A DNA stretch of 33,599 bases from Nitrospirota bacterium (GTDB lineage: Bacteria; Nitrospirota; Thermodesulfovibrionia; UBA6902). The notes below the pieces were generated by a model. It ran no database searches and was not told the origin of the DNA. It saw nothing but the letters and a program-made list of their open reading frames with translations. The stretch covers positions 1 through 33,599 of the forward strand of contig JACRPZ010000006.1 of the NCBI GenBank assembly GCA_016222905.1. The letters run 5' to 3'. The translations under genes and the position numbers were made by a program. Of the stretch, positions 12,290-23,044 are shown in pieces (positions within the stretch are counted from its first letter, which is position 1; every line of letters starts with the position of its first letter).

Positions 12290-13135
12290 ATGGAAACAAG
12301 TATTGCTATTTTTAAAGGTAAGGAAATCAGAAAAACGATTCACAAGAATGAATGGTGGTTTGTAATCAATGATGTTATTGAATCATTGACTGATTCCAAT
12401 GATCCGGCACAATACTTTAAGCGATTAAAACAGAGGGATGAGGAGCTTGCAAAACTTACTGATAAAGGGGGGGTACAATTTGTACCACCCCTTATGCTGG
12501 AGGTAGAAACTACTGGCGGGCAACAAAAAATGTATTGCTGGAATACGGAAGGGATATTTAGACTTATTCAATCCATACCTTCCCCGAAGGCTGAGCCTTT
12601 CAAACGCTGGCTGGCTAAAGTGGGATATGAGCGTGTGCAGGAGATAGAAGACCCGGAATTGGGGACAAAGAGGACAAGGGCTTTATACAAGGCAAAGGGT
12701 TATTCTGATGACTGGATAGAAAAGCGGATGCGCGGCATTGCCATCAGGGAAGAACTGACAGACGAATGGAAAAAGAGGGAAGTGAAAGAGAAAAAGGAAT
12801 ATGAGATACTTACCGCAGAGATTGCAAAAGCAGCATTTGGCGTAAACCCAAGTCAGCATAAGAAATTAAAAGGGTTGAAACGTGAAAATCTGAGAGACCA
12901 TATGAACGACCTTGAACTTATTTTCTCTATGTTAGGTGAAGCTGCAACAACTGAGATAACGCGGGTTGATGATGCAAAGGGTTTTCATGAGAGCAAACGT
13001 TCAGCACGCAAGGGCGGGGAAGTTGCAGGTAAGGCGCGAAAAGACCTTGAGAAAAAGACGGGTAAGAGGGTTGTCTCAAAAGAGAATTATCTGATTGAAC
13101 CTGAGAGCCGGAAGAGGTTGGAGAGAAAAAAGTAA
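12290..13135 (+). CDS. Bro-N domain protein (phage antirepressor type)
   Basis: 281 aa. Residues ~5-115 form a Bro-N domain: IAIFKGKEIRKTIHKNEWWF, INDVIESLTDSNDPAQYFKRLK, then YCWNTEGIFRLIQSIPSPKAEPFKRWLA. The Bro-N fold is a DNA-binding module of baculovirus and phage antirepressors. The C-terminal half is Lys/Glu-rich and ends with a conserved-looking RKGGEVAGKARKDLEKKTGK followed by RVVSKENYL. A CAGGAGGG site is seven bases before the ATG. It is the first gene of a ten-gene plus-strand run: the 52-aa gene starts 18 bp after its stop and cas3 eight bp after that. It could be a regulator, a mobile-element passenger, or a defence accessory; the sequence does not decide. Confidence 0.85.
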   Translation: METSIAIFKGKEIRKTIHKNEWWFVINDVIESLTDSNDPAQYFKRLKQRDEELAKLTDKGGVQFVPPLMLEVETTGGQQKMYCWNTEGIFRLIQSIPSPKAEPFKRWLAKVGYERVQEIEDPELGTKRTRALYKAKGYSDDWIEKRMRGIAIREELTDEWKKREVKEKKEYEILTAEIAKAAFGVNPSQHKKLKGLKRENLRDHMNDLELIFSMLGEAATTEITRVDDAKGFHESKRSARKGGEVAGKARKDLEKKTGKRVVSKENYLIEPESRKRLERKK

Positions 13136-13320: not shown

Positions 13321-15642
13321 ATGACCACATATCTTGCACATAGCGCAAATAAACAGGGAATAACTCATTCGGCAAAAGATCATTTGTCCGATGTAGCCTT
13401 ACTTGCAAAAGGCTTTGCCGGGAAAAGTCCTTGGAGCGATGAAGCCGTCCTTGCCGGAATTCTCCATGATCTCGGCAAGTATGCTGATCTTTTTCAGGCT
13501 CGTTTGCGAGGTGAAGTAAGCGGACTTGACCATTGGTCGCCGGGGGCATGGGTGGCTCTTGCAGAATGTCATTCGATAGCGGGTGCATTAGCGATTCAGG
13601 GGCATCACATAGGCTTACAGCAGGGGAGCAAAGATGCTCTGCGTGGACTGAACCCGGTGGACCTTGCCCTGCGCCATCCACTCAACCTGAAACTGAGTGA
13701 CAACGGTCTTCAGCGACTCAAACAACGGTTCGCAGATGACGGTCTTTCTGCTGTCAAAACAAACAAAACAGTGATCAACGTCAACAAAGGTATTGAAAAC
13801 CCTCTTGCGACCATGCTCGATATTAGGATGCTCTTCTCGTGTTTAACAGATGCTGACTTTCTGAACACCGAAGCCCACTTCGAAGGTGACGAACATGGCA
13901 AGAGATATCGCGTGTTTGGGCCATCGCTGAATCCAAAGGAGGCACTTCGAGCATTGGAGAAACACATGACCAGCCAAGTACGCAGCACGAGCAAGGCGGA
14001 CATAGTAGTGAATGATGCCAGAAACGCGCTTTGGGATATGGTCATTACGTCAGCTGCCGCAAAACCGTGCCTCTTTACTTTGACCGCACCGACCGGTAGC
14101 GGCAAGACACTGGCCATGCTCAAATTCGCCTTGGAGCACGCGAACCGCAACGGGCTGAAACGGGTCGTACTTGCAGTGCCATACCTCTCTATTATTGAAC
14201 AAACTGCGGCGATCTATCGGGCCGTTTTTCAGGAGTTTCCAGACAACTTTGTGCTTGAGCATCACAGTCTTGCAGGCTTGGGGAGCGAAGAAGCGAAAGA
14301 CGACGCTGAGGCCGGCAATGAACGTGCCCGAAGGCTACTTTCGGAGAATTGGGATGCCCCGATTATCATTACTACCAATGTGCAACTGCTGGAGTCGTTG
14401 TTTTCAAATCGGCCTTCGGCCTGTCGCAAACTGCACAATCTGATGGAGTCGGTTATCATGTTCGATGAGGCTCAGACTTTGCCACAGATGCTCGCCGTGC
14501 CAACGCTGGCGGCACTTTCCCATCTTTCTCAAGCATACAGTGCTACGGTAGTTTTTGGCACAGCTACACAACCTGCATTCGACGCACTGGATAACGCGGT
14601 AACGAAACTCGTTCCTGTAGGATGGCATCCCGTCGAGGCAGCGCCCAATCATGCTCGTCTTTATGATGCACTGCGCCGTTACGACATGCGATGGCCAAAA
14701 AAAGGGGAAACGAAGGAGTGGTCGGCCCTTGCGGATGAGATTCGGAATGAGAAGCAAGTGCTCTGTGTAGTGAACCTTAAGAACCATGCAATGGCACTGC
14801 TTGAAGAGATCAAAAGCAATGATGCTGTCTTTCATCTTTCCACCAATCTCTGTGCATACCACCGCCGCTTTGTTTTGGATGAGGTTCGCGCCAGATTGAA
14901 AGGGGGCGAACCGTGCAAGCTGATCTCGACTCAGTGCGTAGAGGCTGGCGTGGATGTCGATTTCCCCATAGTATACCGTGCGCTATCACCGCTTGACGCC
15001 ATTGCCCAAGCCGCAGGACGCTGCAACCGTGAAGGGCGGCTTAAGGACAATATTGGAAACCGGAAGATGGGCGAGGTGCGAGTCTTCGAACCTACCGTTG
15101 AAGGCAACTATCGGAAGTGCTATCCAACTCATGCTTATTTTCAAGCGGCTGAGGTAACGCGAACTATGCTCATCACAGCGGGAGAGACAGGTCTCGATTT
15201 GAATGATCCAGCGGCATTCCGTGACTATTATCATCGGCTCTATGACCTGAGCAATCCAGAGACCCAGAGCAAGGAACTTGCAGAGGCATTTGCATCCGTA
15301 GATTTTGTCCGTGTAGCACAGGAGTATAGATTGATTGATAAGGCAGCCATCCAGGTGCTGGTTCCTTATCATCCATACCTTGATCTGTTCTTTGAGTTGC
15401 AGCGCGAGCAGTACGAGCAAGGAATAAACGCCAAATGGATGCGCCGCGCTCAAGGGCTCGCGGTTAGCATTTTTCGCCCTAACTTGGATCATCCCGCAAG
15501 GGAAGTATTGATTCCGGCGAAACTCCGTTACGGAAATGGCGTATCGGATGAATGGTTTATACTTGAAGATCGTAACCAAGAGCTTTACGACAATGTTATG
15601 GGACTACGGCTACCGCAGTCCCAGCAAATTCTGATTGGTTGA
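13321..15642 (+). CDS. cas3: CRISPR-associated helicase-nuclease Cas3 (type I-C, HD fused)
   Basis: 773 aa. Cas3 is recruited by Cascade bound to target DNA, and unwinds and degrades it. The N-terminal HD nuclease has H21, the H49-D50 pair (GILHDLGKY), the LDHWSPGA block and GHHIG at 94-98. The SF2 helicase follows: Walker A APTGSGKT (256-263), AVPYLSIIEQT, motif II DEAQ (382-385), then STQCVEAGVDVDF and motif VI QAAGRCNREG. All catalytic residues look intact. The start has no clear ribosome site and may be coupled to the 52-aa gene ending eight bases before. cas5 follows after 16 bp. Arginine is often CGN here, unlike the AGA/AGG-rich core genes, which hints at transfer. Confidence 0.96.
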   Translation: MTTYLAHSANKQGITHSAKDHLSDVALLAKGFAGKSPWSDEAVLAGILHDLGKYADLFQARLRGEVSGLDHWSPGAWVALAECHSIAGALAIQGHHIGLQQGSKDALRGLNPVDLALRHPLNLKLSDNGLQRLKQRFADDGLSAVKTNKTVINVNKGIENPLATMLDIRMLFSCLTDADFLNTEAHFEGDEHGKRYRVFGPSLNPKEALRALEKHMTSQVRSTSKADIVVNDARNALWDMVITSAAAKPCLFTLTAPTGSGKTLAMLKFALEHANRNGLKRVVLAVPYLSIIEQTAAIYRAVFQEFPDNFVLEHHSLAGLGSEEAKDDAEAGNERARRLLSENWDAPIIITTNVQLLESLFSNRPSACRKLHNLMESVIMFDEAQTLPQMLAVPTLAALSHLSQAYSATVVFGTATQPAFDALDNAVTKLVPVGWHPVEAAPNHARLYDALRRYDMRWPKKGETKEWSALADEIRNEKQVLCVVNLKNHAMALLEEIKSNDAVFHLSTNLCAYHRRFVLDEVRARLKGGEPCKLISTQCVEAGVDVDFPIVYRALSPLDAIAQAAGRCNREGRLKDNIGNRKMGEVRVFEPTVEGNYRKCYPTHAYFQAAEVTRTMLITAGETGLDLNDPAAFRDYYHRLYDLSNPETQSKELAEAFASVDFVRVAQEYRLIDKAAIQVLVPYHPYLDLFFELQREQYEQGINAKWMRRAQGLAVSIFRPNLDHPAREVLIPAKLRYGNGVSDEWFILEDRNQELYDNVMGLRLPQSQQILIG

Positions 15643-16402: not shown

Positions 16403-18115
16403 ATGCTCCAGCGTGTTATTGAGTTTGCAAAGAAGAATATACCCTATTTGCAGCCCGGTTTTGGGCCGAAGCGGGTGAAGTGGCGTATTTCTATAAACAT
16501 AAACAGTACTGCTGTTGTAGAACCATATGGTGATGGTGACTATGGGAGCGAGTTGGAGAGGTGTCCCGAATATCCTGCTAATCTTCTTCAAGGCGGGGGG
16601 CGTTGTCACTTTCTGGTCGATACTCTTCAGGTAATGCTTCTGTTATTGGATAAGAAGGATGACCCTGAAAAGTATCAAGAGAAGCACACCTATTTTACTG
16701 AATTGCTCAAGATGGCCTCGAATACAATCCCCGAGTTGATCGTAGCGGCAGATTTATTTGCTGACAGTGAAAAACTTCAACTGTTACGGGAACACCTTAA
16801 CACGTCAGGGGCTAAACCAACTGATAAAGCATTTTTCATTGTCGGTGGGTTCGATCCGCTCAAGAACGAACCATGTCTTGCATGGTGGACAGATTTTAGA
16901 GAGTCATTATCTAGTAGCGGTAATACGTCATCACAGATGTTGTGTTTTTTGAGCGGAGATAATGTCGTTCCAGAAACAACACACCCCAAGATTTCTGGGC
17001 TCAAGTCGGTTGGTGGGCGAGGTCAAGACATCCTTATTGGTTTTGACAAAAAGGCTTTTGCGTCATTTAGCCTGGAGCAGTCCACAAATTGTGCCATGTC
17101 AGAAAATGCTGTGAACTGCTATTCAAAAGGCCTTGATTTTCTTATTTCTAAACACTCAAGAACGTTGGCTGGAACTAAGGTAGTCCACTGGTTTAAAGAG
17201 GCTATTCCGCAGGAAAATGACCCTCTATGGTTTCTCTCTGAACCGCCGGAACTGACTGAAGGTGCAGCCCAGCAATCTGCCCGTGAAATTCTTGAATCGC
17301 TAAGAAAAGGGCAACGACCGGTACCAGCCAATAACCGTTTTTATGCGATGACGGTTTCCGGTGCATCAGGCCGGGTTATGGTGCGCGACTGGATGGAAGG
17401 GAGTTTTGAGGATCTGGTTTCCAGAATCGAGCAATGGTTTGCTGACTTGGAGATAGTAGCCAGGAATGGTGAAAAATCAGCACCTGAACCTAAATTCATG
17501 GCAGTATGTGGTGCAATGGTGCGGGATCTGAAAGATCTTCCCGCACCAACTGCATCTACTCTCTGGCGTGTCGCCCTTGCCGGGTTGCCGATCCCCCAAC
17601 CGTTCATCGCCCAAGCGTTGGCCCGTTTTCGGGCCGACATCATTGAAGATAAACCGTTCAATCATGCCCGTATGGGGTTAATTAAAGCATACTTTATCCG
17701 AAAAGGAGGAAATCACAACATGTGTACCTATCTGAACAAAGAACATCCAGATCCGGCGTACCAATGTGGGCGTTTGCTGGCAGTTCTGGCAAGTCTACAA
17801 TATTCCGCTCTTGGAGATGTCGGAGCAAGTGTAGTGCAGCGTTACTACGTTGCAGCAAGTCAGACTCCTGGCCTAACTATCGGGCGGCTCATCTCTAACG
17901 CCAAGAACCACCTAAACAAACTGGATGGTGGTCTTGCATTCTGGTACGAAGATCAGATCGCTGAGATTATGAGTTGTATTCAAGACCGTATCCCGGCAAC
18001 ACTTGATCTTGAACGGCAGAGTCTCTTTGCCCTCGGTTACTACCAACAAATCGCTGCCAATCGTGCGGGATCAAAGAATAACATCACTAACGAATCCAAA
18101 GAAGGAGGCAACTAA
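16403..18115 (+). CDS. cas8c: Cas8c (Csd1), large subunit of type I-C Cascade
   Basis: 570 aa. Cas8c recognises the PAM and starts target unwinding; in I-C an internal start can also supply the small subunit Cas11c. The N-terminal part reads VKWRISINI and later [12 protein letters not shown]. Further on are [37 protein letters not shown] and the [15 protein letters not shown] block, all familiar from Csd1 proteins. A GGAGGTGA site overlaps the end of cas5. In the C-terminal third, AAAAGGAGG at 17701-17709 precedes ATG 17720, an in-frame candidate for a Cas11c start that would give ~131 residues. The cas7 ATG overlaps the last base of its stop. Confidence 0.95.
17720..18115 (+). CDS. cas11c: Candidate internal translation product of cas8c: Cas11c small subunit
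   Basis: Inside cas8c an AAAAGGAGG motif (17701-17709) stands ten bases before an in-frame ATG at 17720. The predicted product of 131 residues starts [20 protein letters not shown] and is mainly helical. Published work on type I-C shows that a small subunit is made from such an internal start near the cas8c 3' end, and the position and size here fit. Translation is inferred from the sequence only. Confidence 0.6.
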
Positions 18116-19122
18116 TGAGTATCCAAAATCGCTATGAATTTCTTTACCTGTTTGACTGTGAAAACGGCAATCCCAACGGTGACCCGGACGCCGGCAATGC
18201 CCCCCGTATTGATCCAGAGGATATGCACGGCCTTGTTTCCGATGTTGCGCTCAAGCGTCGCGTTCGGAACTATGTTCAGACGAAATATGAAAATGTAGCA
18301 CCGAATGCAATCTATGTTGAGCACTCGACCAACCTCAACAAGCCAATAGCCCTGGCGCATGAAAAAGCCAATGGAGCGGTTCCCAAAGACGGAAAGACAA
18401 CAAAGGGGCAGTCTCTGAACGCACGGACGTGGCTGTGTGGAAATTTCTTCGATATACGGACATTTGGCGCAGTTCTCAGCACTGGTGCGAATGCGGGACA
18501 AGTTCGAGGACCTGTGCAGTTTGCATTCGCCCGTTCAGTTGACCCAATCATGCCTTTGGATCTCTCTATAACGAGAATGGCCAAGACCCCAACTGGAAAA
18601 GACATCAAAAGCGATGCGACTTATCAGCAGCACGTAGAGTGGGAAGAAAATGCCCCTGAAGATTCTCTACGCACTATGGGGCGCAAGGCGCTCATTCCTT
18701 ACGGCTTCTATGTGGCCAAGGGTTTTATCAGCGCCAATCTCGCCAATGGGACTGGATTTTCTGATACAGATCTTGCAAATCTCTGGGAAGCTTTGGCCAA
18801 CATGTATGATCACGACCGCTCCGCCAGCAAAGGGATGATGTCATGTCGTGGTCTCTACGTTTTTAAACATGTTGGCACCGATAACGGCAATTCGGATCAG
18901 AGGGCGAGGCAGGCAAAACTCGGCTGCGCTCCTGCTCAAGCTTTGCTTGATCTTGGCAAAGTGATTGACATCTGCAAGGATGAAGCTGCGATGAGCATAG
19001 ACAAGGTGACGAGCCCACGCAAATTTGTTCATTACTCGGTTAAGGTAAACGAAAAGAAAATTCCTACAGGAGTTGAGCTTTGGAAGTGGGATGACAACAA
19101 CAGCGGATTAACGCAGGTTTAA
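18115..19122 (+). CDS. cas7c: Cas7c (Csd2), crRNA-binding backbone of type I-C Cascade
   Basis: 335 aa. Multiple Cas7 copies coat the spacer part of the crRNA. The diagnostic start is [29 protein letters not shown], with G-[NS]-P-N-G-D-P-D, followed by [11 protein letters not shown]. Later blocks are [34 protein letters not shown] and [18 protein letters not shown]. It is somewhat longer than the ~290 residues I recall for typical Csd2; the extra length appears to lie around 65-110 and at the C-terminus. GAAGGAGG precedes the ATG, which overlaps the cas8c stop by one base. cas4 starts four bases after the stop. Confidence 0.95.
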
Positions 19123-19126
19123 TAGA

Positions 19127-19768
19127 ATGTCAGATAATAATTTCATTGGTGACGCAGAGCGGGAACTTATTCCAGTTTCCGCTCTGAACCAATATATTTA
19201 CTGCCCACGTCGCTGTGCTCTTATTTTTATCGAGCAAGCGTGGAGCGAGAATCTTTTCACTGCCGAAGGCAGGGTCATGCATGAGAAGGCAGATAGTAAT
19301 AAGTTTGAATCACGCGGGAATGTCCGTATCGACTACAGCGTTCCCCTGCGGTCGCTGAGGCTTGGATTAATCGGCAAAGCGGATGTAGTGGAGTTTCATA
19401 AAATGGGTGATAAATGGATTCCATTTCCTATTGAATACAAGCGTGGCAAGCCGAAGCTTGATGATTGCGATAAGGTTCAGCTTTGCGCTCAGGCAATATG
19501 CCTTGAAGAAATGCTCAATGTCGAGATACCGGAGGGCGCGCTTTTTTACGGACAAACACGGCACAGGGAGGATGTAGTTTTCGATAATGTTTTAAGAATG
19601 GAGACAGAGAATACGGCAAGAAAAGTTCACGAGCTTATTGAATCTGGCATTACTCCGAAGGCTGAGTATTCAGCAAAGTGCAAGAAGTGTTCCTTGCTTG
19701 AATTGTGTCTGCCGAAGGTTAGCAGGAAGGCAAGTAAATATTTACTGACTGCGATTGAGGAGGAATGA
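19127..19768 (+). CDS. cas4: Cas4 PAM-processing exonuclease
   Basis: 213 aa. Cas4 works with Cas1-Cas2 to trim prespacers and select the PAM. The iron-sulphur ligands are C26 (YIYCPRRC) and C185, C188 and C194 (CKKCSLLELC). The RecB-type nuclease centre is H52, D86 (IGKADVV), E103 and K105 (IEYKRGK). All are present, so it should be active. The gene ends GAGGAGGAATGA: this gives a ribosome site and an ATG overlapping the stop, the usual coupling to a next gene, but here that ATG opens only a 19-codon frame. It looks like a junction left by the RhuM insertion. Confidence 0.96.
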   Translation: MSDNNFIGDAERELIPVSALNQYIYCPRRCALIFIEQAWSENLFTAEGRVMHEKADSNKFESRGNVRIDYSVPLRSLRLGLIGKADVVEFHKMGDKWIPFPIEYKRGKPKLDDCDKVQLCAQAICLEEMLNVEIPEGALFYGQTRHREDVVFDNVLRMETENTARKVHELIESGITPKAEYSAKCKKCSLLELCLPKVSRKASKYLLTAIEEE

Positions 19769-19843: not shown

Positions 19844-20896
19844 ATGAAGAAAAAGAAAGAGCCTGCTTCTGAGAAAGGCGAACTTGTTTTATATCAGGCA
19901 GAAGACGGCAAAACTAATATAGAAGTGAGATTGCAGAATGAAACTGTCTGGATGAGCCAACTGGCGATGGCGGAACTGTTCCAAACGACTGTACCTAATA
20001 TCAACATGCATCTGACAAATGTATACGCTGAGAGCGAACTTTTAGAGATGGCAACTATTAAGGATTACTTAATAGTTCGACAGGAGGGCACCCGACAGGT
20101 TAAGCGCTCTGTAAGGCATTACAATCTTGAAGCGATAATAGCAATCGGCTACCGGGTGAAATCCTCCCATGGCACACAATTCCGTAAATGGGCGACAGAG
20201 CGGTTAAATGAGTATCTTGTCAAGGGCTTCACCATGGACGATGAACGTCTGAAAGAAGTCAATAATATCGGCTCAGATTACTTTGATGAGATGCTTGAAA
20301 GGATACGTGATATCCGTTCAAGCGAAAAACGCTTTTACCAGAAAATCCGCGACATCTATAAACTTGCGGCAGATTACGACCCGACTGCTGAGGAGACGCT
20401 GGAATTTTTCAGCATTGTCCAGAACAAGCTGCATTTTGCTGTTTCGGGTAAAACCGCAGCAGAGATAATTTCTGAACGGGCGGATGCTTCAAAGCCCAAT
20501 ATGGGATTGACTTCGTGGAAGGGCACCAAAGTCCGCAAGGGAGATATTACCATTGCCAAGAATTACCTGAACCATAATGAAATCGAGCATCTCAACCGCA
20601 TTGTTGAAATGTACCTGAATTATGCAGAAGACCAGGCCAAACGCCGCAGGCAGGTTTTCATGCGTGACTGGCGGGAAAAGCTGGACGCATTTCTACAGTT
20701 TAACGAGAGGGACATTCTTACTAATGCCGGCAAGGTGACAAAAGAGATTGCTGACAGGCTGGCGGTTGAGCAGTATGAAACTTTTCACAGTAACCGGCTC
20801 TCAACCGAGGCGCGAAATGAAGCCCTTGCCGACGATGAAGAACTGAAAAAGATAGAATATGCTATCGAAAGAAAGAAGAAACAGAAACGTAAATAA
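19844..20896 (+). CDS. rhuM: RhuM family protein inserted between cas4 and cas1
   Basis: 350 aa, full length for the RhuM family (virulence protein RhuM, named from Salmonella SPI-3). Diagnostic blocks are LYQAEDGKTNIEVRLQNETVW, MSQLAMAELFQTTVPNINMHL and EGTRQVKRSVRHYNLEAIIAIGYRV, then GTQFRKWATERLNEYLVKGF. The C-terminal half has EEYKRRRQ-like text here read as QAKRRRQVFMRDWREKLD and ends with KKIEYAIERKKKQKRK. The N-terminal part resembles phage KilA/antirepressor-type DNA-binding modules; no biochemical activity is established. It starts 75 bp after cas4, with GGGGAAAGGAAG as ribosome site, and ends one base before the cas1 ATG. Its reading frame is intact. It may be a passenger, a regulator of the adaptation genes, or an accessory factor. 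Confidence 0.88.
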   Translation: MKKKKEPASEKGELVLYQAEDGKTNIEVRLQNETVWMSQLAMAELFQTTVPNINMHLTNVYAESELLEMATIKDYLIVRQEGTRQVKRSVRHYNLEAIIAIGYRVKSSHGTQFRKWATERLNEYLVKGFTMDDERLKEVNNIGSDYFDEMLERIRDIRSSEKRFYQKIRDIYKLAADYDPTAEETLEFFSIVQNKLHFAVSGKTAAEIISERADASKPNMGLTSWKGTKVRKGDITIAKNYLNHNEIEHLNRIVEMYLNYAEDQAKRRRQVFMRDWREKLDAFLQFNERDILTNAGKVTKEIADRLAVEQYETFHSNRLSTEARNEALADDEELKKIEYAIERKKKQKRK

Positions 20897-20897
20897 A

Positions 20898-21929
20898 ATG
20901 AAGAGACATCTCAACACATTATTTGTCACAACACAGGGCGCATATCTCTCTAAAGAAGGCGAGACGGTTGCTGTCAAGGTTGACGGTGCAATCTGCTTGC
21001 GTATCCCGATTCATACGCTTGGCGGGATTGTCTGTTTTGGACAGGTATCATGCAGTCCATTTCTCATGGGATTCTGCTCGGAGCACGGAGTGGCTATAAG
21101 CTTTCTCACAGAGAACGGCAGATTCCTTGCAAAGGTTCAGGGGCCGGTATCAGGCAATGTCCTTCTCAGGCGTGAGCAATACAGAAAAGCTGATGATCTT
21201 GCGATATCTGCCGATATTGCAAAGTCTTTTGTCAGCGGAAAGCTGTTGAATAACAGAGCTGTGTTACAGCGTTTTGTGAGAGATCATCAGGACAAGCCAA
21301 ACGCTGACAAGGTAGATTTTGCATCAAAACTTATTGATTCATCATTGAGGCGATTACAAAATGAAAAATCTTTAGACGGAATAAGAGGGATAGAAGGGGA
21401 TTCCGCTCATACTTATTTCAGCGTCTTCGATCATCTCATTACAAGCCAGAAAAATGAATTTAATTTTAGCGAGAGAAACAGAAGACCGCCGCTTGATAAT
21501 GTGAACTGTTTGTTGTCATTTATTTATACGCTGGTAATGCATGATGTGCGGTCGGCTCTCGAAACTGTCGGGCTTGATCCGGCAGTTGGATTTTTGCACA
21601 GAGACCGTCCGGGCAGATATGGGCTGGCTCTTGATATGATGGAGGAATTCAGGCCGTTCCTTGCAGACCGCCTCACTCTTTCATTGATAAACCTTTGCCA
21701 AGTGCAGAACAAGGGATTTAAAAGCAAAGAGTCGGGAGCTGTGTTGATGGATGACGATACAAGAAAGACGGTGCTGGTTACATACCAGACCCGCAAGCAG
21801 GAGGAGATAATGCATCCGTTTCTGAAAGAGAAGGTCACAATCGGCTTGCTGTTTCACACGCAGGCATTGCTCATGGCACGGTATCTGCGCGGCGATATGG
21901 ATTCATATCCGCCGTTTGTATGGAAGTGA
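20898..21929 (+). CDS. cas1: Cas1 integrase (type I-C)
   Basis: 343 aa. Cas1 with Cas2 inserts new spacers at the leader end of the array. The metal ligands are E166 (GIEGDSA), H234 (VGFLHRDRPGR) and D246/E249 (LALDMMEEFRP), all conserved. The start MKRHLNTLFVTTQGAYLSKEG is typical of the I-C branch, so ATG 20898 is used; the frame extends 13 codons further into rhuM without homology. The RhuM stop ends one base before this ATG, and only a purine-rich AAAGAAAGAAG tract can serve as ribosome site, so translation may be coupled to rhuM. cas2 follows after six bases. Confidence 0.96.
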   Translation: MKRHLNTLFVTTQGAYLSKEGETVAVKVDGAICLRIPIHTLGGIVCFGQVSCSPFLMGFCSEHGVAISFLTENGRFLAKVQGPVSGNVLLRREQYRKADDLAISADIAKSFVSGKLLNNRAVLQRFVRDHQDKPNADKVDFASKLIDSSLRRLQNEKSLDGIRGIEGDSAHTYFSVFDHLITSQKNEFNFSERNRRPPLDNVNCLLSFIYTLVMHDVRSALETVGLDPAVGFLHRDRPGRYGLALDMMEEFRPFLADRLTLSLINLCQVQNKGFKSKESGAVLMDDDTRKTVLVTYQTRKQEEIMHPFLKEKVTIGLLFHTQALLMARYLRGDMDSYPPFVWK

Positions 21930-21935
21930 GGTTCT

Positions 21936-22226
21936 ATGTTTGTACTTGTAAGTTATGATGTTTCAACAGTCGAAAAAGGAGGCCAGCGCCGCCTGAGAAG
22001 AGTGGCACGTGCGTGTCTGGACTACGGGCAGAGGGTTCAGAACTCTGTCTTTGAATGTATTGTTGATCCTGCTCAGTGGACGATGCTTAAAGAAAGATTG
22101 ATTTCAGAGATTGATACTGAGAAAGACAGCCTGAGATTTTATTATCTTGGCTCTAACTGGAAGCATCGTGTAGAGCATGTCGGCGCGAAGCCTGGGATAG
22201 TGCAGGATGGCCCATTGATTGTATAA
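21936..22226 (+). CDS. cas2: Cas2 adaptation protein
   Basis: 96 aa. Cas2 forms the dimer at the centre of the Cas1-Cas2 integration complex. It shows the ferredoxin-like start MFVLVSYDVST with the conserved Asp8, RRLRRVARACLDYGQRVQNSVFEC and the C-terminal strand LRFYYLGSNW. The length is normal. GTGAGGTTCT precedes the ATG as a modest ribosome site. The leader and array begin after its stop, so spacers are added 188 bp downstream of this gene. Confidence 0.96.
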   Translation: MFVLVSYDVSTVEKGGQRRLRRVARACLDYGQRVQNSVFECIVDPAQWTMLKERLISEIDTEKDSLRFYYLGSNWKHRVEHVGAKPGIVQDGPLIV

Positions 22227-22414
22227 GATGACTTTGCGCGAACCTCATGCATACACACATTCCCGCATGGATTCGCAGGACATAAAATTGGATTATAAAA
22301 CATGACCGTATGTAACCTGATCTTTGACAACTTTACAATTCGCTGGCGCAAAAAAATGATGTTCGCAAAAAGTGGCGGATTTGTCTTTTAATATTCTTTA
22401 TTTGCAAAGTAACA
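22227..22414 (+). promoter_or_regulatory. CRISPR leader between cas2 and the first repeat
   Basis: 188 bp without a gene, on the cas2 side of the array, where all repeats are identical, as expected of the leader end. GCGAACCTCATGC (22238-22250) and GCATGGATTCGC (22265-22276) form an imperfect inverted repeat, and similar GCGAACC/GGTTCGC elements follow cas2 in other I-C loci (from memory). TTGACA occurs at 22324-22329 but no matching -10 is found 17 bases on. The last 40 bases are AT-rich. Confidence 0.7.
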
Positions 22415-23044
22415 GTCGCGCCCCGTACGGGGCGCGTGGATTGAAACTTTTTGTATCATACATAAGAAAATTGCCTTTACGTCGCGCCCCGTACGGGGCG
22501 CGTGGATTGAAACCGTATCTCTGCCCTGTGGTTGTTCTGTGGTCTCTAGTCGCGCCCCGTACGGGGCGCGTGGATTGAAACAGGATAAAAACGGGAAAGA
22601 TATTTGTGAAGGGGTCGCGCCCCGTACGGGGCGCGTGGATTGAAACTTATCTGTTCTTGTGGTCAGTTGTAGTCCAAAGTCGCGCCCCGTACGGGGCGCG
22701 TGGATTGAAACTTCAAGACTATGTTTTCCACATCGCCAACAATTTGTCGCGCCCCGTACGGGGCGCGTGGATTGAAACCGCTATCGTATCAACCTGCTCC
22801 TGCACCGCCTGTCGCGCCCCGTACGGGGCGCGTGGATTGAAACGCTTCAAACGCCGCCTCGCAGATCAGCCGCTGCGTCGCGCCCCGTACGGGGCGCGTG
22901 GATTGAAACCTATTGGTGAGGAACGCTCTTGGGAGGATCAAGCTGTCGCGCCCCGCACGGGGCGCGTGGATTGAAACATTTAACTTTTAAAGATTATCCG
23001 CATTCCGAGCAGGTCGCGCCCCGCACGGGCGCGTGGATTGAAAC
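22415..23044 (+). CRISPR. Type I-C CRISPR array: 10 repeats, 9 spacers
   Basis: Repeat starts: 22415, 22481, 22549, 22614, 22679, 22746, 22811, 22877, 22945 and 23013. Repeats 1-8 are identical 33-mers: GTCGCGCCCCGTACGGGGCG plus CGTGGATTGAAAC. Repeat 9 differs by one base (GCACGGGG core, 33 nt) and repeat 10 has the GCACGGG core and is 32 nt. Spacers are 33, 35, 32, 32, 34, 32, 33, 35 and 35 nt. The GTGGATTGAAAC 3' end is the I-C signature and sets transcription left to right, away from cas2. CGCGCCCCGTACGGGGCGCG in repeats 1-8 is a perfect palindrome that would fold into the hairpin cut by Cas5c. The array ends one base before the stop codon of the opposite-strand phosphodiesterase gene. Confidence 0.99.

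Follow-up and report, generated by a model that had tools for sequence, protein, structure and literature searches.

A ten-repeat CRISPR array in a Nitrospirota genome probably holds an ordered record of two successive changes in its own repeat: the repeat at the leader end would have changed twice, each changed copy being inherited by the repeats added after it. The array lies at 22415-23044 (+ strand) of the window, by which we mean the whole stretch of 33,599 nucleotides analysed, and its variants form a nested series from the leader end to the trailer. The first eight repeats, R1-R8, share one 33-nt sequence with loop GTAC (8/8, GTCGCGCCCCGTACGGGGCGCGTGGATTGAAAC; 33T below), R9 is also 33 nt with C replacing T and hence loop GCAC (33C), and R10 is a 32-mer with loop GCAC that lacks one G of the 3' arm (32C). 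In CRISPR systems in general, a new repeat is a duplicate of the leader-end repeat. R10 would thus keep the oldest form, R9 the next and R1-R8 the present one. The first-pass annotation of 22877-23044 (R8-R10) had described these three forms and the perfect palindrome of R1-R8, and both sequence and coordinates bear it out.

Three repeat forms in a type I-C locus

The array closes a complete type I-C operon consisting of cas3, cas5c, cas8c, cas7, cas4, a RhuM-family gene, cas1 and cas2, after which come the leader and the repeats. The features are listed below; G024:C5 and G024:C2 are the two I-C systems of one genome, G024, and G034 is a family relative.

13321..15642, + strand: cas3 (helicase/HD nuclease); TIGR01587 116 bits, TIGR01596 61 bits
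15635..16402, + strand: cas5c (Cas5d), presumed repeat-processing nuclease (role from the accessible part of PMC8616872); TIGR01876 4.6e-36
16403..18115, + strand: cas8c/csd1; TIGR01863 2.9e-79
18115..19122, + strand: cas7/csd2; TIGR02589 1e-88
19127..19768, + strand: cas4; TIGR00372 3.4e-47
20901..21929, + strand: cas1 (I-C type); TIGR03640 3.8e-156; longest ORF from 20859, conserved part from about 20901
21936..22226, + strand: cas2; PADLOC Cas2c 3.6e-43
22227..22414, + strand: leader; last 64 nt closest to G034 (81%), upstream part closest to G024:C2 (78%)
22415..22909, + strand: repeats R1-R8, 33T; starts 22415, 22481, 22549, 22614, 22679, 22746, 22811 and 22877
22945..22977, + strand: repeat R9, 33C; identical to the repeat of G024:C5
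23013..23044, + strand: repeat R10, 32C; oldest by position
Within 22448..23012, + strand: nine spacers of 32-35 nt, between the repeats

The effector genes score over the cut-offs of TIGR01863, TIGR01876, TIGR02589 and cas3_core within one operon, cas4-cas1-cas2 are recognised by TIGR00372, TIGR03640 and Cas2c, and the repeats are stem-loops with the GTGGATTGAAAC end. These genes, together with a cas1-cas2 pair adjoining the R1 end of the array across the leader, support the earlier reading of a type I-C array whose leader adjoins R1. No cas6 was found among the eight ORFs of the window scanned with NCBIfam or the ten scanned with Pfam; Cas5d stands in for Cas6 in type I-C, according to the portion of PMC8616872 available. 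An Rfam search of the repeats returned no family at threshold.

Two further genes accompany the operon. The RhuM-family gene (PF13310; PADLOC candidate PDC-S05; 19844-20896) sits between cas4 and cas1, and the same arrangement was seen in 10 of 36 distinct I-C cas1 loci of the phylum, a count that covers the loci returned by the family cas1 model and the phylum Cas1 searches rather than all matches (the window, L068, L092, L094, L098, L104, L107, L113, L116 and L127), with RhuM fragments in two more (L090 and L091). The gene may be an accessory that recurs in adaptation operons; in a literature search for RhuM with CRISPR, no title or visible start of an abstract among the matches listed names such a link. 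Just upstream of cas3 lies a Bro-N gene (PF02498; PADLOC PDC-S13; 12290-13135), relatives of which stand beside cas genes in L067, L091, L095, L096, L105, L115 and L124, directly before cas1 in L105 and L115.

Within the repeats, the 20-nt core of R1-R8, CGCGCCCCGTACGGGGCGCG, is its own reverse complement, and the initial GT and the final 11 nt, TGGATTGAAAC, are constant across 10/10 repeats. The host genome (2.84 Mb in 90 contigs) contains these ten repeats and no others of the same form. The first-pass annotation had given R10 the length and core of common I-C repeats. Its length of 32 nt is indeed usual in relatives, while its exact sequence belongs to no other system among 233 loci, all 20 loci that contain it being overlapping stretches of this same array. 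Megablast found no copies of R10 in plasmids and phages and none of R8 in plasmids; a looser search with R10 gave a best plasmid match of 93.8%, in Nitratidesulfovibrio vulgaris.

Relatives, leader and the origin of the variants

The order of the forms can be compared with repeats outside the array. Of 101 genomes searched with a pattern covering both repeat lengths (32 and 33 nt), three matched: the array's own genome, G024 and G034. The repeat of G024:C5 is 33C in 5/5 copies, equal to R9 letter for letter; that of G034 is a 32-mer with T (loop GTAC) and no insertion in 38/38. For a wider comparison, a cas1 model matched 14 of 37 genomes in the family, 12 of them above the cut-off, and a search of the phylum with the window Cas1 gave matches in 71 of 395. 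Regions around or downstream of cas1 were taken for part of both sets (11, 20 and 14), phylum matches below about 60% identity being left out. The resulting quick Cas1 tree has 47 rows, with SH-aLRT as its only support measure, and 34 relatives in it have a parsed array. Repeats of 32 nt were read in 33 of these 34, one of the 33 (L149) ambiguously, as its first two bases vary between copies. The sole 33-nt relative is G024:C5, which is also the nearest by Cas1 (93% identity); it groups with the window at a support of 93, and both group with the 32-nt system G024:C2 at 96. Since the outgroups have 32 nt and the nearest relative carries the form of R9, the series 32C to 33C to 33T fits both the array order and the phylogeny; the exact 32C form is found in no relative.

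We infer two events, in the following order. First, one G would have been gained in the 3' arm, through slippage in the G run or copying from the other arm, before the adaptation module split from that of G024:C5. Later, in the window's lineage, the loop C would have become T, either through mutation of that single base or through a crossover importing a leader end together with the left half of a repeat from a G034-like 32-nt GTAC array. Neither change would have touched the final 11 nt, the expected crRNA handle. Stretches of conserved repeat variants have been taken to suggest that a new repeat copies the adjacent one (PMC2886076, in the text accessible). Against this record, each older state is represented by a single repeat, and the array of G024:C5 lacks 32-nt repeats and has itself undergone rearrangement. 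In that array (L067:10340-10800), one spacer reaches about 110 nt, and a second copy of its first 80 nt or so follows immediately on the last repeat, which points to rearrangement or misassembly.

Alternatively, R9 and R10 started out as 33T and decayed once in place, which we consider unlikely. Chance is no concern for the array itself, so the question bears on the variants. Distal variants are common, 6 of the 56 array pieces described below varying in the last repeat only and 21 more varying inside, and altered trailer repeats are often reported (PMC8047081, PMC2886076 and PMC4466440, as far as their available text goes). Decay would nevertheless need three changes, two of them to the same base at the same site, compared with two changes for the stepwise record, and it would have to recreate the exact repeat of the closest relative. 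The base that R9 and R10 share at one loop site and the identity of R9 with that relative's repeat therefore make independent decay improbable. Moreover, published alterations of terminal repeats lie mostly at the 3' end (accessible parts of PMC8047081, PMC4466440 and PMC7056967), and degenerate terminal repeats are recognised by loss of that end on the trailer side, but here the final 11 nt are the same in every repeat.

The leader complicates the second step. By nucleotide comparison the window's cas1 and cas2 (87% each) are both closest to G024:C5. The leader part adjoining cas2 is closest to G024:C2 (78% vs 63%; 26 to 7 informative sites), and the last 64 nt are closer to G034 (81%) than to G024:C5 (62%; the informative sites split 15 to 3, sign test 0.0075, not corrected for the eight comparisons made). 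Because the leader end resembles that of a 32-nt GTAC relative, the T may have arrived with it from a G034-like array, by a crossover inside the first repeat. It follows from this mosaic that the cas1 tree need not equal the repeat tree. The rest of the operon is discordant as well: the window and its closest relative by Cas1 (L067, G024:C5) are 93% identical in Cas1, 94% in Cas2 and 82% in Cas4, and 34% in Cas3, 37% in Cas5 and 43% in Cas7, so that, judging from these identities, an exchange of effector and adaptation modules seems to have taken place.

On another account, recombination between I-C arrays, and not successive mutation, united all the forms, 33T being a hybrid in which the leader-end half of a 32-nt GTAC repeat joins half of a 33-nt GCAC repeat. 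The mixed affinities of leader and cas1-cas2, the discordant effector genes and the presence of two I-C systems in G024 speak for this account. The segments compared are short, however, the comparisons several, and one crossover inside a repeat together with retention of R9-R10 would be required; for a single base, a point change is simpler. We rate recombination as the origin of the whole series as improbable, and note that an import limited to the T step is also compatible with the stepwise record. The claim that the insertion came first and the substitution second is consistent, in its order, with the array and the Cas1 tree, whereas the G034-like leader end makes it uncertain that the T is a simple substitution. 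An assembly artefact that attached R9-R10 from another strain is very hard to credit: the genome is a draft of 90 contigs, but the region is inside a 33.6-kb contig, R10 (end 23044) abuts the neighbouring metallophosphoesterase gene (opposite strand, end 23046), and the repeats are far shorter than usual reads and split by unique spacers.

Repeat variants in other arrays

Arrays elsewhere show variants running in several directions. A contig scan for the two 33-nt forms yielded 28 stretches, which were parsed; searches covered 12 of the source genomes, and the family that includes Selenomonas massiliensis gave matches in 12 of 189 genomes. The I-C array of Selenomonas massiliensis L229, with cas2 upstream, is like that of the window in having 33-nt repeats with GTAC on the leader side (35 repeats) and GCAC forms beyond, hence the same direction; unlike the window, it has no length step, and its Cas1 is about 50% identical. 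In Olsenella (L039) the direction is reversed: the last two repeats have GTAC, and those toward the leader GCAC. Here the leader side was read from repeat orientation, no cas gene being seen in the stretch. Selenomonas felix L230 reads GCAC, GCAT, ACAC, GCAT from distal to leader end. The reversed Olsenella order and the back-and-forth in L230 imply that position is not always time. In a gammaproteobacterial array (L046, 1657-5961, cas2 upstream), 63 GTGC repeats are followed by one distal GCAC; this loop is the exact reverse complement of GTGC, as a hairpin flip would give.

We parsed 56 array pieces (1349 repeats; at least five repeats each). Twenty-nine are uniform, 6 vary in the last repeat only, 14, with the window among them, have internal variants without two types in runs, and 7 have at least two repeat types in runs. 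Together with the mixed directions, these counts indicate that repeat variants are common and their direction is not fixed. Some pieces were split from one array (for example L040/L048, L045/L051 and L060/L065, each pair sharing a contig), and the set includes arrays truncated at the end of a contig or stretch. Left out were L047, L049 and L059 (no array parsed), the duplicates L041 and L066, and 35 viral stretches; L149 was also omitted because of its variable first two bases, its four repeats being below the minimum anyway.

Comparison with relatives had been proposed as a check on the order of variants, and the outcome is divided. The length order agrees with the Cas1 tree and with the identity of R9 and the G024:C5 repeat; as a general rule the order fails, G034 having T in 32-nt repeats (38/38) and the Olsenella array, though of a distant lineage, carrying the palindromic form at its distal end, an observation that the first-pass annotation had named in advance as a refutation.

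Among the 35 viral contig stretches matching the I-C repeat pattern, 27 have a single exact match, mostly an isolated repeat, and no array (L196, L197, L200-L204, L206, L207, L210, L211 and L213-L228). Such isolated repeats resemble the solitary repeat units described as RNA anti-CRISPRs. Another viral contig (L195:4600-5630, minus strand) bears a row of strongly diverged I-C-like repeats, most of which share the GTGGATTGAAAC end only.

Runs of repeat variants have been reported before. In the accessible text of Touchon and Rocha 2010 (PMC2886076), such runs in Escherichia/Salmonella arrays are read, as here, as adjacent-repeat copying at each spacer addition; the window differs from those arrays in that one I-C array combines nested changes of length and loop, which are set against relatives outside it. 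Legionella pneumophila (PMC7056967, part available) is similar in that the last repeat departs from the consensus and repeat identity follows the repeat copied, and two of its I-F consensus repeats likewise have GCAC in one loop and GTAC in the other. The change in its last repeat is at the 3' end, and array collapse and refilling are proposed there; in the window the 3' end is unaltered, and the variants can be explained without collapse. A literature search of partial coverage turned up no title about a length step and a loop step nested within a single I-C array. The direction of change read by the first-pass annotation is plausible, and the phenomenon is already known in general.

Hairpin, palindrome and repeat length

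The first-pass annotation had credited the substitution with an additional stem pair, which the predicted folds contradict. As RNA, 32C forms a 7-pair stem (-14.3 kcal/mol), and 33C and 33T form 8-pair stems (-18.1 kcal/mol each); the DNA values for 32C, 33C and 33T are -10.3, -11.7 and -11.7. The new pair therefore comes from the inserted G. The change from C to T adds none: a pair between the G and the C of GUAC would enclose a loop of two bases. This change only completes the 20-nt palindrome. In the models, the completed palindrome is expected to strengthen pairing between two strands: the predicted stability gain of an RNA homodimer over two hairpins is 14.6 kcal/mol for 33T, 7.9 for 33C and 6.3 for 32C.

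Both changes make the arms exact reverse complements, by the added G and by the completed palindrome, as a quasipalindrome template switch would, but slippage in the G run or a point change yields identical products. Arm homogenization and spacer inversion through template switching are described in yeast (PMC8604942, accessible part). We rejected a general drive toward completed palindromes, since a perfect palindromic core is the main repeat in only 2 of the 56 array pieces, one of them the window, in a sample biased by a scan that selected the two 33-nt forms, and since loops of all kinds occur (GCAC, GCAT, ACAC, GTGC, GTAC). In arrays with runs, stem changes toward the leader go both ways, L156 breaking a pair and L155 and L052 restoring one, too few to test. 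At L156:1538-2222, five leader-side repeats have the pair-breaking stem change and six older repeats are intact. Co-adaptation of the 33-nt repeat with the window's Cas5c is likewise not supported: the 33-nt form accompanies two Cas5c proteins that are about 37% identical and is therefore not tied to one of them.

The length step may bear on how repeat length is set. A ruler in the 3' part of the repeat is described for type II-A, with I-E and I-B rulers cited; an insertion upstream of it moves the second cut along, and a downstream insertion trims the end (PMC6895254, available text). In the 33-nt repeats the end is retained, as would be expected if the insertion lay upstream of a ruler. Nine repeats (R1-R9) carry the added base in the 3' arm with the last 15 nt intact; on a tentative reading, put forward with low confidence, the element that sets the second integration site in type I-C would lie downstream of the inserted G. 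By analogy, the 31-nt copies inside the 32-nt array of L091 would show a like tolerance of length. On the same low-confidence reading, repeat length can evolve through the stem, and hairpin-driven copying errors may push repeats toward perfect palindromes or flip their loops. These errors may act when single-stranded repeats are filled in; the idea draws on both steps moving toward a palindrome and on the GTGC/GCAC loop flip of L046.

If the stepwise reading is true, the two oldest repeats are an ordered record of a change in repeat length and loop while the repeat was still usable, and the comparison with relatives shows that outside evidence can test a record of this kind. The array also carries a warning: leaders recombine, so a change of repeat need not be a mutation. 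Finally, if the record is true, the array would offer a test of the position of the repeat-length ruler in type I-C systems.
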